Positions 13,585-18,633 of a stretch of 64,000 nucleotides of DNA are shown here, piece after piece. Position 1 is the first letter of the stretch; each line of letters opens with the position of its first letter. The DNA is from Vulcanimicrobiota bacterium (GTDB lineage Bacteria > Vulcanimicrobiota > Vulcanimicrobiia > Vulcanimicrobiales > Vulcanimicrobiaceae). Under the pieces are notes generated by a model. The model saw nothing but the letters and a program-made list of their open reading frames with translations, searched no databases and was not told the DNA's origin. The DNA is taken from assembly GCA_003140215.1 (NCBI GenBank), contig PLJL01000001.1, positions 124,001 through 188,000 on the forward strand, read 5' to 3'. The translations under genes were made by a program, and so were the position numbers.

Positions 13585-14406
13585 CTAGACGGCGGCCGTT
13601 CGCAGCTTGAGGATGCGCCGCGCCTCGTCGGGAGTCGCGACCGGACGGCCCAGCTCCGCCGCGATCCGCGCGACGCGGGCGACGAGCTCGTCGTTGCGCG
13701 CCAGCCGGCCTTTCTCGTAGTAGAGGTTGTCCTCGAGGCCGACCCGGACGTGACCGCCCATCGCGATCGCCACCATCGCGAGCGGCAGCTGCATGCGCCC
13801 GATCCCCGCAACCGACCAGGTGCAGCCGGCGGGGAGCGCGCGCACGCAGTCGACGAGGTGCTCCACCGAGGCCTCGAGCCCGCCCGGGACCCCGAGCACG
13901 AAGTCGACGTGGGCCGGAAGCTCGATCGCGCCCTCTTTGGCCAGCAGCTTCGCGTTGGAGAGGTGGCCGAGATCGAAGATCTCCAACTCGACGGCGACGT
14001 CGTTCGCGCGCATCGCCGCGGCGATCCCGCGCATGATCGGAAAGCTGTTCTCGAAGATGTCGTCGCCGAAGTTCACCGTGCCGCAGGTGAGCGTCGCCAT
14101 CTCGGGCCGCAGCGCCAACGGTCCGGCGCGCTGGTGCGGCGTCATCCCGATCGCGCCGCCGGTCGAGAACTGCACGATGAGGTCGCTCGCGGCGCGGATG
14201 GCGTCGTACGCCTGGCGGAAGCGCTCGACGGCGTGCGTGTTGGTCCCGTCGTCGTTGCGGCAGTGGACGTGCACGATGCTTGCGCCCGCGGCACGGCAGG
14301 CGCGCGCCGTCTCCCCGAGCTGCGCCGGCGTGACGGGCAGGTGCGGCGTCTGCTCGGGCATGACTTCGGCGCCGACCGGCGCGACGGTGATGATCAGCGG
14401 GTCCAC
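13585..14406 (-). CDS. Beta-keto acid cleavage enzyme (BKACE/DUF849 family)
   Basis: 273 residues. The family condenses a beta-keto acid with acetyl-CoA to give a CoA ester and acetoacetate, as in 3-keto-5-aminohexanoate cleavage during lysine fermentation. The zinc-binding HxH is His46/His48 in IVHVHCRND. The LEDNLYYEKGRLARND segment near the C-terminus is also typical. Which keto acid is used is not predictable; lysine degradation is one option, since KamB/KamC-like genes lie 10 kb away, but no aminomutase or diaminohexanoate dehydrogenase is in the window. It sits upstream of a dipeptide-type permease pair. Confidence 0.85.
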   Translation of the reverse strand: MDPLIITVAPVGAEVMPEQTPHLPVTPAQLGETARACRAAGASIVHVHCRNDDGTNTHAVERFRQAYDAIRAASDLIVQFSTGGAIGMTPHQRAGPLALRPEMATLTCGTVNFGDDIFENSFPIMRGIAAAMRANDVAVELEIFDLGHLSNAKLLAKEGAIELPAHVDFVLGVPGGLEASVEHLVDCVRALPAGCTWSVAGIGRMQLPLAMVAIAMGGHVRVGLEDNLYYEKGRLARNDELVARVARIAAELGRPVATPDEARRILKLRTAAV

Positions 14407-14455
14407 GACCGGGACGGTTCGCCGGGCAAAACGCGCGTCCCGCGCTTCCCATCCG

Positions 14456-16750
14456 TCAACCCTGACAGAAGAAGTCGGGAACCTCCTCCAAGCGTCGGAT
14501 GAACTCCATCTCGTTGACGTGGATCCGTATCTGCTCGGAAGGCGCCAAACTCGATCGTTGAAAAATCGACCTTCCTGCGATCGAACTCATGCGCACAATG
14601 GCGTCCAGCGACCGCGCCGCGTAGCGATATTTCTCCACGGTCAAGAAAGCGTACACGAGCCCTGGATCGATGTTTATCTCCTCCACCAAGGCGTCATCGT
14701 GCGCGACGACCTGGAACAGATGGGCGCCCGAGTTCTTCAGTTGCGCGCTCAGCAACAGAGCACGGCGCAGAGCGATCGACGCGTCGATGTCCTCGATGCT
14801 GTAATTTGCCGGATGGTCCAGGCTCAAGACATCAACGTGCCCTTTGAGCCTGCTGAGGAAATCGGGTGCCTTTGCATCGGCTCCGAGCTTCGAGAGTGCT
14901 TGTTTCTCGAACTCGGCCATCGAGGAATTCGTGCCCCCCGCGAATACGAAGATCGCCGGACCGACCGTGTGGGTAACGGGGCCCTCCTGAAATGTGCCGT
15001 CCTGCATTGGGGCCAGAAAATAGCGGAGCCAGCCGAGCCTTGCGTTCAGATTCGAATCGAACTCGTCCCAGAACACGACCGGCATCGCGCCTGCGACGCC
15101 TACGTCTCGAACTTGATGGAGCGCATCGTTAATCGCCTGTGCAGAGGAAAATTGTGACAGATTGAAGGTCAAGAGTCGGAGCGGTTGATCCTTCGCGACG
15201 TGATTCGCGACCTCGGTCACGCCGAAAGACTTGCCGGAGCCGGGCGCGCCGAAAACCGCGATGGAGAGCGGTTGACGCGTTTGCATCTCATTCTTCGGCA
15301 TTCGGACGTCGAGGTAATTCTTGAAAAGCGATGCTATGATACTGTACGACTCGATCTCGGTTCGATCGGTCAGCACCAGCTCGCCGAACTTTCTGAGGGG
15401 ATAGTCTGTCGTCGGCCCCACATCGGCGACGCCCTTCAATACGATGCGTTTCGCGTGCAGTAAGATCTCTTTGTAATCGGCGAGCGCTTCTCGCAAGATC
15501 TTCCACTTGAGCCTGTCCGTCTTCGCCGGTCTGCCGTCCAACTTCTGCGGGATCGCGCAACTTGCGTATCTGATCGCCGTCGGATGCAGAAGCTCGGCGC
15601 CCTGATCGAACGACTTGACGATCGTATCCGCGATACTGTCGAGCGGAAAGTGCAGAGTCGGGACGGACACGTGGTCCCTGATCCTCTCTTTTCCCTCATG
15701 CGACGTGTTGGCGAACCCTTCCCGATGAAGCCTCAGCTGTGCCCGGAGCGCGGGGACAATCGCCTTACCGAGGACGACAGGATCTCCACAATCGGCATTC
15801 CCGGCGTCAAGCATCCGAAGCAATTGCAAGAAGACAGCCGTCGTCAAACAGCGTGTATATCCGAACATCGACCCGGGGTACTTCTCGGCCCAGGTCTCGC
15901 GGAGTTGGTGCGGATCGTAGTAGAGGTGGCCTTTGTAGTCACGACGCGTACGCGCATAGACGGCTGCTCCGGCGCCGTAGAACGACACGACGACGTACGA
16001 ACAGTCCCCGTACTCTGTCGGCCAGAGCCGGCGCAGTCCCATATCGAGATCCTCGATCGTGCGCTCCCACGTGAGGCCCCTGCTTATTCGCATCCGCCCG
16101 ACGCGCAGATCGTCCGCACTGACGATGAGGACTATCCTGTTACCGAAATTTGCCTTGACGTGAGCCCACAACGGGGATGGAGCGCCGCCCTCGGGTTTCG
16201 GTTTCCACCGCACGACTGCCCACGCGTCGTTGCGCGGAGTGAGAAGCGAAGGGGGCCAGGCCTCACGCTTTCCGCCGAAGCCGTAGGACGCGTCCTGCAC
16301 GACCACGACATCGCCGCGAACCCCGTCGTCCCCATCCGCGTCCTCGACCAGTTTTCCGAGAAGCTCGTCGGGTTGGCGATCACTACCGACTCGGCGATAA
16401 ACACGCCAGACGATGGCCTTCCCGCTTTGCGATTTCGCTTCGTCGTCTTCAAGCTCGTACGGCGTACAGAGCATGTACGTGTGCCAATACGGCGGAGACC
16501 CTGGCAGAGTCGCGATCGAATCCATGTTCGGCCTCACGACGTACGCGTCGGCGCCACTGAGCTCGATCGTCTTTTCAATCAAACGCCCAAGTGCCGACGC
16601 GCATCCCTCTTCCGCAGTGCACTGCATGTAATGTCCCGTTTCCGGGCGCGTGCCGGTCGCGAGCAAGACCGTGCTCTGCGCAAAACGCCATTCGATCAGA
16701 ATGTCGCCCGCCACGACGATCTTACGCCTTGCACCCGTCACGTTTTGCAC
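14456..16750 (-). CDS. Orphan protein with PfkB-like N-terminal region and C-terminal AAA+ ATPase
   Basis: 764 residues from a GTG just after an in-frame stop. The C-terminal part is an AAA+ ATPase: Walker A GAPGSGKS (501-508), Walker B VVFWDEFD (558-565), sensor-1 Asn in FAGGTNSS (603-610) and a likely arginine finger in DFLSRLKG (630-637). The N-terminal 260 residues hold VVAGDILIEWRFA, VVVQDASYGFGG, ADDLRVGRMRISRGLTWERT and YVVVSFYGAGAAVYAR. From memory this resembles the ribokinase-like region of bacterial RyR-domain proteins, an unverified recall. Base use is visibly less GC-rich than its neighbours, and the gene splits two transporter loci, so acquisition by transfer is likely. Function unknown; signalling or defence is speculation. 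Confidence 0.75.
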   Translation of the reverse strand: MQNVTGARRKIVVAGDILIEWRFAQSTVLLATGTRPETGHYMQCTAEEGCASALGRLIEKTIELSGADAYVVRPNMDSIATLPGSPPYWHTYMLCTPYELEDDEAKSQSGKAIVWRVYRRVGSDRQPDELLGKLVEDADGDDGVRGDVVVVQDASYGFGGKREAWPPSLLTPRNDAWAVVRWKPKPEGGAPSPLWAHVKANFGNRIVLIVSADDLRVGRMRISRGLTWERTIEDLDMGLRRLWPTEYGDCSYVVVSFYGAGAAVYARTRRDYKGHLYYDPHQLRETWAEKYPGSMFGYTRCLTTAVFLQLLRMLDAGNADCGDPVVLGKAIVPALRAQLRLHREGFANTSHEGKERIRDHVSVPTLHFPLDSIADTIVKSFDQGAELLHPTAIRYASCAIPQKLDGRPAKTDRLKWKILREALADYKEILLHAKRIVLKGVADVGPTTDYPLRKFGELVLTDRTEIESYSIIASLFKNYLDVRMPKNEMQTRQPLSIAVFGAPGSGKSFGVTEVANHVAKDQPLRLLTFNLSQFSSAQAINDALHQVRDVGVAGAMPVVFWDEFDSNLNARLGWLRYFLAPMQDGTFQEGPVTHTVGPAIFVFAGGTNSSMAEFEKQALSKLGADAKAPDFLSRLKGHVDVLSLDHPANYSIEDIDASIALRRALLLSAQLKNSGAHLFQVVAHDDALVEEINIDPGLVYAFLTVEKYRYAARSLDAIVRMSSIAGRSIFQRSSLAPSEQIRIHVNEMEFIRRLEEVPDFFCQG

Positions 16751-16813
16751 CCCGACTCAGGCAACCGGAAGGAGACTCGCCTCTCCTTTACGAGCTTATG
16801 CTCATGCCACCTC

Positions 16814-17719
16814 TTACGCGCGCATCTCGGGGTCGAGCGCGTCGCGCAGGCCGTCGCCGAGCAGGTTCACGCCCATCACGGCGATCATGATCGCCAGCCC
16901 CGGGAAGAGCGCCGTCCACCAGGCGGTGTCGAGATATTGCCGCCCGTCGGCGAGCATTCCGCCCCATGAGGGCGTCGTCGGCGGAACACCCAAACCCAGA
17001 AACGACAGCGACGACTCGAGCACGATCGCGCGCGCGATCTCGAAGGTGCCCAGCACGATCGCTGCGCTCGCCACGTTGGGCAAGAGGTGGCGCGCCACGA
17101 CGCGCCCCGGTGCGGCTCCCGCGGCTTCTGCGGCGACGATGAACTCGCGCTCGCGCAGGCTCATCGTCTCGGCCCGCACCACGCGCACGTACTGAACCCA
17201 CGAGGTCAGGCCGATTGCGGCGATCACCGTCCACAGGCCGGGCCCCACGACGGCGACGATCGCCACCGCCAGCAGCACCAGCGGAAAGGCCAGCTGCACG
17301 TCGGTGATGCGCGCGATCACCGCGTCGACGCGACCGCGACGGTAGCCGGCGACGAGCCCCGCGGTGACGCCGATCGTGCCGCCGATCGCGACCACGGAGA
17401 GGCCGACGATCGCCGAGACGCGCGAGCCCCAGATGATCCGCGCGAGCAGATCGCGGCCGAGGTTGTCGGTGCCCAGCGGGTGCTCGTGGACGCCGCCGGC
17501 GATCCAGGCCGGCGGCAGCAACGTTGCGGTCAGGTTCTGCGCGTTGGGGTCGACCCGCGCGATCAGCGGCGCGAACAGCGCGCACACCGCGACGACGACG
17601 ACGATCGCGGCGCCGATCAACGCCGCGGGATCGCGCCGCAAGCGCCGCAGCGAGGCGGTCCGCGACGTGACCGAGACGACGTCGTCGGGCACGCCCGCCG
17701 CGGCAACGGCGGCGGTCAT
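16814..17719 (-). CDS. Dipeptide/oligopeptide ABC transporter permease, DppC-like (second system)
   Basis: About 301 residues from the ATG at 17719, which overlaps the DppB-like stop by four bases. It shows LGTDNLGRDLLARIIWGSRV, the EAA loop (REREFIVAAEAAGAAPGRVV then ARHLLPN) and the ending LLGDGLRDALDPEMRA. It is an inner-membrane channel subunit for peptide-like substrates. With the DppB-like gene and the binding protein immediately upstream it forms a three-gene minus-strand operon lacking an ATPase gene, so ATPases must come from elsewhere. It is clearly related to, but not a copy of, the permease at 11.6 kb. Confidence 0.92.
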   Translation of the reverse strand: MTAAVAAAGVPDDVVSVTSRTASLRRLRRDPAALIGAAIVVVVAVCALFAPLIARVDPNAQNLTATLLPPAWIAGGVHEHPLGTDNLGRDLLARIIWGSRVSAIVGLSVVAIGGTIGVTAGLVAGYRRGRVDAVIARITDVQLAFPLVLLAVAIVAVVGPGLWTVIAAIGLTSWVQYVRVVRAETMSLREREFIVAAEAAGAAPGRVVARHLLPNVASAAIVLGTFEIARAIVLESSLSFLGLGVPPTTPSWGGMLADGRQYLDTAWWTALFPGLAIMIAVMGVNLLGDGLRDALDPEMRA

Positions 17720-18633
17720 GCGTACCGGATGCGCGGGTCGAGCACCGCGTAGAGCAGGTCGACCGCGAGGTTGAGCACCACGAAGATCGTCGCGGCCAGC
17801 AGCACTACCGCCTCCACGACCGGGAAGTCGCGCTCGAACACGGCCTGCACCGCGAGCCGTCCGACCCCCGGCCACGCGAACACCGTCTCGGTGATGATCG
17901 CGCCCGAGAGCAGCGTGCCGAGCTCGACGCCCAATTGCGTCACGATCGGCAGCCAGGCGTTGCGCAGCCCGTGACCGAGCGCGACCCGCGTCCCGGTGAG
18001 CCCCTTGGCGCGCGCCGTGCGCAGGTAGTCGGCCTCCAAAATCTCCAGCATCGAGGCACGTGTCAGGCGCATGATCTTCGCCGTCGAGAAGAATCCCAGC
18101 GTCGCCGCCGGCAGCACCAGGTTGCGCCAGTCGCCGATCCCGCTCGCCGGCACCCAGCCCAGCCGCACCGCGAAGAGCAGGATCAACATGAGGCCGATCC
18201 AGTACGTCGGCGCGCTCTGGCCGATGAGCGCAACGATGCGGGCGACGTAATCGATCCAGGTGCGCGGCCGCAACGCGGAGAGGACGCCCGCCGGAACCCC
18301 GATGAGTGCAACGATGAGAAACGCGGTGCCGGCAAGCTCGATCGTCGCCGGCAGGCGCTCGAGCGCAAGCGACATCGCCGGCTCTTGGTGGCGCAGCGAC
18401 AGGCCCAGATCGCCGTGGGCGGCCGAAACCGCGAACCAGCCGAACTGCACGATCAGCGGACGGTCGAACCCTTGCGCGTGCCGAAACGCATCGAGCTCGG
18501 CGCGGGTCGACTCGGGCGGCATCATCACGCTGGTCGGGTCACCGGTCAGGTGCAGAATGATGAAGACGACGGTCGCGACGCCGATCAGCGCCCACAGCGC
18601 GCCCAGCGCGCGCCGCGCGAGGTACGCGACCAT
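17716..18633 (-). CDS. Dipeptide/oligopeptide ABC transporter permease, DppB-like (second system)
   Basis: 305 residues, full length with six predicted membrane helices starting YLARRALGALWALIGVATVV. The periplasmic segment contains HLTGDPTSVMMPPE and the EAA loop ADYLRTARAKGLTGTRVALG. It partners the DppC-like subunit (four-base overlap) and follows the substrate-binding protein gene by ten bases. Peptides, or other ligands of cluster-C binding proteins such as nickel or glutathione, are possible; the gamma-glutamyltransferase nearby makes gamma-glutamyl peptides attractive. Confidence 0.92.
   Translation of the reverse strand: MVAYLARRALGALWALIGVATVVFIILHLTGDPTSVMMPPESTRAELDAFRHAQGFDRPLIVQFGWFAVSAAHGDLGLSLRHQEPAMSLALERLPATIELAGTAFLIVALIGVPAGVLSALRPRTWIDYVARIVALIGQSAPTYWIGLMLILLFAVRLGWVPASGIGDWRNLVLPAATLGFFSTAKIMRLTRASMLEILEADYLRTARAKGLTGTRVALGHGLRNAWLPIVTQLGVELGTLLSGAIITETVFAWPGVGRLAVQAVFERDFPVVEAVVLLAATIFVVLNLAVDLLYAVLDPRIRYA

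Follow-up and report, generated by a model that had tools for sequence, protein, structure and literature searches.

A horizontally acquired gene for a predicted pseudokinase-AAA+ protein, lacking the RyR domain of its relatives, in a variable spot of an oligopeptide-transporter gene row

Bacterial conflict loci with SLOG-SLATT and TIR genes have predicted roles as sensors of ADP-ribose-type signals, NADases and 2TM effectors; in the proposed scheme SLOG senses derivatives of ADP-ribose, which regulate the membrane effector SLATT (PMC9503650). Such genes stand beside relatives of the gene described here, whereas none of them adjoins the gene itself. A second point of comparison comes from RyR domains, which in phages bind or cleave cADPR immune signals (2026 preprint, PMC13232231). 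The RyR domains of the relatives conserve EH..W, H and DR residues; His, Trp, His and Asp at the corresponding places of phage RyR-domain proteins are reported to contact 3'cADPR (PMC13232231). With phage RyDEP and animal RyR Repeat12 (PF02026; PMC13232231) the relatives share the EH..W, H and D residues of this binding, whereas our protein has no such domain at all. RyR proteins with PfkB-like and AAA+ domains are exemplified by WP_264051538.1 ('RyR domain-containing protein', Methylobacterium sp. FF17 plasmid), which has the same order of pseudokinase and AAA+ and is ~28-30% identical along most of its length. Proteins of this type carry RyR at the C-terminus, whereas the copy studied here stops earlier and has no SIR2, SLOG or TIR neighbour. 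No description of the pseudokinase-AAA+-RyR architecture was found in the open-access literature, subscription papers lying outside that scope, and we do not claim novelty for the architecture.

Judged from its sequence, the gene belongs to a rare pseudokinase-AAA+-(RyR) family as a RyR-less member. It lies in the window, that is, the whole 64-kb stretch of DNA that was analysed, and is present in a single copy in its genome (Table 1). With a probability of about 0.5 we read it as a conflict-system ATPase of the pseudokinase-AAA+-RyR kind that arrived by horizontal transfer and lacks RyR, from a family found mostly in predicted conflict systems that work with NAD-derived signals. A preliminary description had noted codons richer in AT than those of the neighbours, and this is borne out: third-position GC is 0.73, the lowest among plausible genes of the window, versus 0.84-0.95 in the neighbours (0.87-0.95 in those measured singly) and a mean of ~0.86 in the other plausible frames; the few frames below 0.73 show GC1 > GC3 and resemble antisense shadows.

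Table 1. Coordinates in the window of the gene, its parts and its surroundings
Feature	Position	Strand	Description and basis
Whole gene	14456..16750	(-)	764-aa pseudokinase-AAA+ protein; GTG start, alternative GTG 3 codons in; homologues and alignment
N-terminal domain, residues 8-384	15599..16729	(-)	predicted ribokinase/PfkB fold, GAGD catalytic Asp absent (GSMFGYT); AlphaFold2 model, VIA, Foldseek
AAA+ domain with lid, residues 425-734	14549..15478	(-)	Pfam PF00004; model pLDDT 77; AAA+ folds Z ~15; motifs
AAA+ motifs (residues)			Walker A 501-508; Walker B 558-565; sensor-1 region FAGGT 603-607; SR 633-634
Gap to BKACE-type gene	14407..14455	(-)	49 bp; no RyR remnant; six-frame hmmsearch
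Downstream flank, BKACE-type gene (by eye)	13585..14406	(-)	in all 11 genus genomes; outside the system
Upstream flank, ABC transporter permease (OppC-like, by eye)	16814..17734	(-)	outside the system
Variable insertion spot, OppC to BKACE-type gene	14407..16813	(.)	empty in two genomes of the genus; four others hold different cargo

The N-terminal half had been described as PfkB-like, and a lack of any similarity to ribokinase folds had been named as evidence that would speak against this. In the AlphaFold2 model (whole protein: mean pLDDT 65, pTM 0.59, alignment of nine sequences) residues 8-384 are predicted to share the fold of the ribokinase/PfkB family (PF00294), VIA-align giving Z 19.5 with 292 residues aligned at 4.8 A to Giardia ribokinase 6whj, followed in its list by many ribokinases and nucleoside kinases, and Foldseek giving E 3e-8 to HldA. 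The fold prediction thus confirms the earlier view, though sequence profiles give no support for the window protein: the PfkB Pfam profile did not match it and matched a single relative weakly, hhalign against E. coli RbsK gave no match, and direct comparison with PfkB profiles or PDB sequences gave nothing significant. In ribokinases the GAGD motif holds the catalytic Asp. This residue is missing in 11 of 11 aligned sequences, Bacteroidota members still showing GHGSSFLAGF or GLGSSFLAGF, recognisable as the motif but with Ser in place of Asp, and because the loss extends to all of them it would be logical to regard the domain as a pseudokinase, not an active kinase. The 'nucleoside-kinase-like sensor' proposed earlier is consequently plausible as a binding domain, while its kinase part falls with the catalytic Asp.

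The AAA+ ATPase site is intact, as had been stated: Walker A (GAPGSGKS), Walker B (VVFWDEFD), the sensor-1 sequence FAGGT and an SR pair, an arginine-finger candidate, are all conserved in the alignment, and the Pfam AAA profile scores 22.9 bits, just over its cut-off of 21.2. Modelled separately, this part reached the values given in Table 1; naming its AAA+ clade by fold is ruled out, as sigma-54 activators and Clp ATPases tie in that comparison. Pfam AAA is the only curated family matched by the protein, and no named defence model was matched above threshold, the nearest one, the IteA/IetA anti-phage ATPase, reaching 16.4 bits where its cut-off lies at 510 (12 bits in PADLOC).

Homologues were found in Anaerolineaceae (L002, L004), Peptococcaceae (L003), Fimbriimonas (L005), Bacteroidota (L006-L008) and Acidobacteriaceae (L009), and on plasmids of one Streptomyces and one Methylobacterium; there were no further plasmid records, and none in viral contigs or phage collections. 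The similarity spans both the pseudokinase and AAA+ domains along the protein length at 25-32% identity, in a sample of only about a dozen homologues, several of which are close kin of one another. Occurrence is sporadic (3 of 98 relatives), and within the genus one of ten other genomes, G007, has a homologue. That protein (L015:3687-6386) has 899 aa, is also RyR-less and carries ~140 aa inserted between both domains; in the tree it groups with the window protein with support of 100/98. The RyR-less members as a single clade were unsupported by the tree (3 changes).

Most relatives have ~880-950 aa, with 150-200 extra C-terminal residues. RyR (Pfam PF02026) is recognised in L009 (4.5e-12), L014 (1.1e-14), L008 (6e-10) and L007 (3e-9), weakly in L002 and L004, and in L006 in a separate frame, which makes seven RyR-bearing relatives. 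L003 has a SLOG-like part fused where RyR would be, resembling the partner of L002 (E 8e-8), and L005, cut by a contig end, was left out of the comparison of RyR-bearing and RyR-less proteins. The kinship with bacterial RyR-domain proteins suspected in the preliminary description holds, and both N-terminal motifs on which it was based occur, in related form, in RyR-bearing relatives. Other RyR-type architectures exist in the same phylum (domains named by eye): L045 and L048, in G093 and G086, are repeat-rich proteins with a SLOG-like stretch ahead of RyR, and L046, in G146, is a membrane protein with TrkA/RCK-like domains and RyR at its end.

The window protein stops where relatives run on for ~60-100 aa to RyR, and a six-frame hmmsearch of the window with an RyR profile built from the relatives gave no match, so that RyR is truly absent here and the window copy has lost this domain. 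For a RyR-domain partner elsewhere in the own genome, a PF02026 search gave no match, and it gave none in the control genomes either. The window copy may be a remnant in decay, part of a once larger conflict locus that was moved by transfer, was stripped of the RyR sensor and partners and is becoming a pseudogene, an idea that suits the absence of both here, the separate RyR frame of L006 and the broken relative in the same phylum (G086, L016:5636-7602), reduced to pieces of 186 and 202 aa with stops between. We regard it as doubtful, though not negligible: the frame is open for 764 codons with every AAA+ motif intact, and the RyR-less form recurs in the G007 and Streptomyces plasmid homologues, the two other complete proteins of this kind (n=3 with ours). 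Because both are open frames ending at about the same place as ours, the recurrence points to a stable form more than to random truncation.

A survey of the homologues' neighbourhoods for partner genes, proposed earlier, found SLOG, TIR or SIR2 genes near all seven RyR-bearing relatives. SLOG-type proteins adjoin L002 and L004, and SLOG-DUF4231-SLATT proteins adjoin L005 and L007, with a homologous gene at L006; TIR neighbours are nSTAND2-TIR at L002, TIR-NB-ARC-TPR at L007, TIR-Kelch at L008 and TIR-phosphofructokinase at L009, and a SIR2-TPR protein lies two transposase-type genes off from L014. In the L009 neighbour (L009:11067-13085), two genes downstream of the RyR-bearing relative, TIR is fused to a phosphofructokinase (PF00365, 5.5e-48). 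None of the three RyR-less proteins (window, G007, Streptomyces) has a SLOG, SLATT, TIR or SIR2 neighbour, the G007 contig showing only a few kilobases either side of its homologue; the Streptomyces plasmid copy has adjoining tyrosine recombinases and a NACHT gene ~4 kb away. The association of RyR with SLOG, TIR or SIR2 neighbours (7/7 versus 0/3, Fisher 0.008 by sequence) should be read as a pattern, not proof, shared ancestry leaving ~4 versus 2 independent lineages. A diverged SLOG-type gene is present in the own genome (L055:4252-6069, C5 ~613 kb; E 2e-13), unlinked to the window gene, and similar genes occur in G003 and G008.

The mechanism that we infer, with its ring assembly, ligand, direction of signal, signalling and defence roles and continued function in the host, would run as follows. 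The AAA+ part may assemble into a nucleotide-driven ring, gated by the dead ribokinase-fold domain upon binding of a nucleoside or nucleotide ligand or of a protein. In full-length relatives the C-terminal RyR would serve as a second input, for an ADP-ribose-type signal from a neighbouring TIR protein, and the ring would control an effector, either SLOG-SLATT at the membrane or an NADase of the TIR/SIR2 type. The window copy, with RyR and local partners gone, may respond via the pseudokinase alone or use factors encoded elsewhere. Because this copy and its closest relative have neither RyR nor a SLOG, TIR or SIR2 neighbour, that it belongs to a working conflict system is something that we infer from relatives only 25-36% identical to it.

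One may think instead of a regulator outside defence, a pseudokinase-gated AAA+ remodelling ATPase acting in a MoxR- or Clp-like manner to control metabolism or stress, the SLOG/TIR links being confined to other branches. The AAA+ fold matches are unspecific, with a tie of sigma-54 activators and Clp ATPases at Z ~15, relatives give weak bpMoxR and Torsin profile matches, and RyR-less members have no conflict-gene neighbours, which all agrees with such a role; we nevertheless hold it to be unlikely, for a sporadic distribution, foreign composition, a variable spot and kinship with RyR, SLOG and TIR suit conflict genes better than housekeeping regulators. The preliminary description had also speculated on a one-gene signalling or defence system. 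This is not established: the RyR-bearing relatives sit in multi-gene SLOG/SLATT/TIR or SIR2 neighbourhoods, and RyR is precisely what the window copy lacks. That the RyR-less form is a self-contained immune switch, in which the AAA+ ring would respond to a nucleoside or nucleotide tied to infection and sensed by the pseudokinase itself, with no RyR or SLOG/TIR partners, seems to us rather improbable.

The reading as an acquired conflict-system ATPase also draws on the position of the gene. As had been noted, no partner gene flanks it; it sits between oligopeptide-transporter genes and a BKACE-type gene. Among the ten other genus genomes, in those where the junction is readable, the gap between OppC and BKACE is empty in G003 and G007, where the match ends lie 54 and 122 bp apart, and is filled with unrelated cargo in G008 (2.0 kb), G006 (3.6 kb), G005 (3.8 kb) and G010 (5.2 kb). 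In G006 the spot (L034:5782-8736) is occupied by a Dam-family adenine methyltransferase and a DGQHR protein (Dnd-associated type; TIGR04172, 3.6e-56), accompanied by an HTH gene and by a 220-aa protein that had no match and looks membrane-like by eye; third-position GC is 0.54-0.62 in this cargo versus 0.88 in the flanks. The cargo of G005 and G010 looks ordinary by eye, with TonB-receptor-like and aldolase-like frames in G005 and surface- or usher-like frames in G010; at the same spot in G008 there is a 149-aa frame (L036:5931-6380), HNH-like by eye, with no Pfam, PADLOC or NCBIfam match. The ends of the window insert show no convincing target-site duplications and no clear terminal repeats. 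The G007 homologue sits in the same gene row, ~6 kb from the position of the window gene; the two proteins have ~36% identity, against 80-90% for most of the flanking genes. Two separate arrivals appear likelier than one inherited gene, and a relocation followed by fast divergence is a less likely alternative.

The foreign composition of the gene and its insertion in a variable spot of the oligopeptide-transporter row are shown, and we take it to have arrived there by horizontal transfer. A conserved metabolic operon with the flanking transporters, mentioned earlier as an observation that would count against a signalling gene, is not what the genus presents: because the gap is empty or differently filled elsewhere and the G007 copy is placed differently, the gene is not part of a conserved transporter operon. 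An accessory role in the row, for instance as a transport regulator, for which same-strand neighbours with gaps of ~50-60 bp and the place of the G007 homologue between SBP2 and GGT genes of this same region could be quoted, is largely refuted and very improbable, as the gene is missing in 9 of 11 genus genomes, the gap it occupies here is empty even in G007, and homologues elsewhere do not adjoin transporters.

The gene draws attention to a family in which a predicted ribokinase-fold domain without the catalytic Asp is coupled to an AAA+ motor, and in relatives also to RyR, SLOG, SLATT and TIR domains. The RyR-less copies constitute a natural deletion for probing the pseudokinase and AAA+ parts alone, and the gap between OppC and BKACE can be used as a hot spot for finding more cargo in the genus. 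Bacterial AAA+ proteins with RyR beside TIR genes may represent a possible host-side counterpart of the phage RyR domains (PMC13232231).
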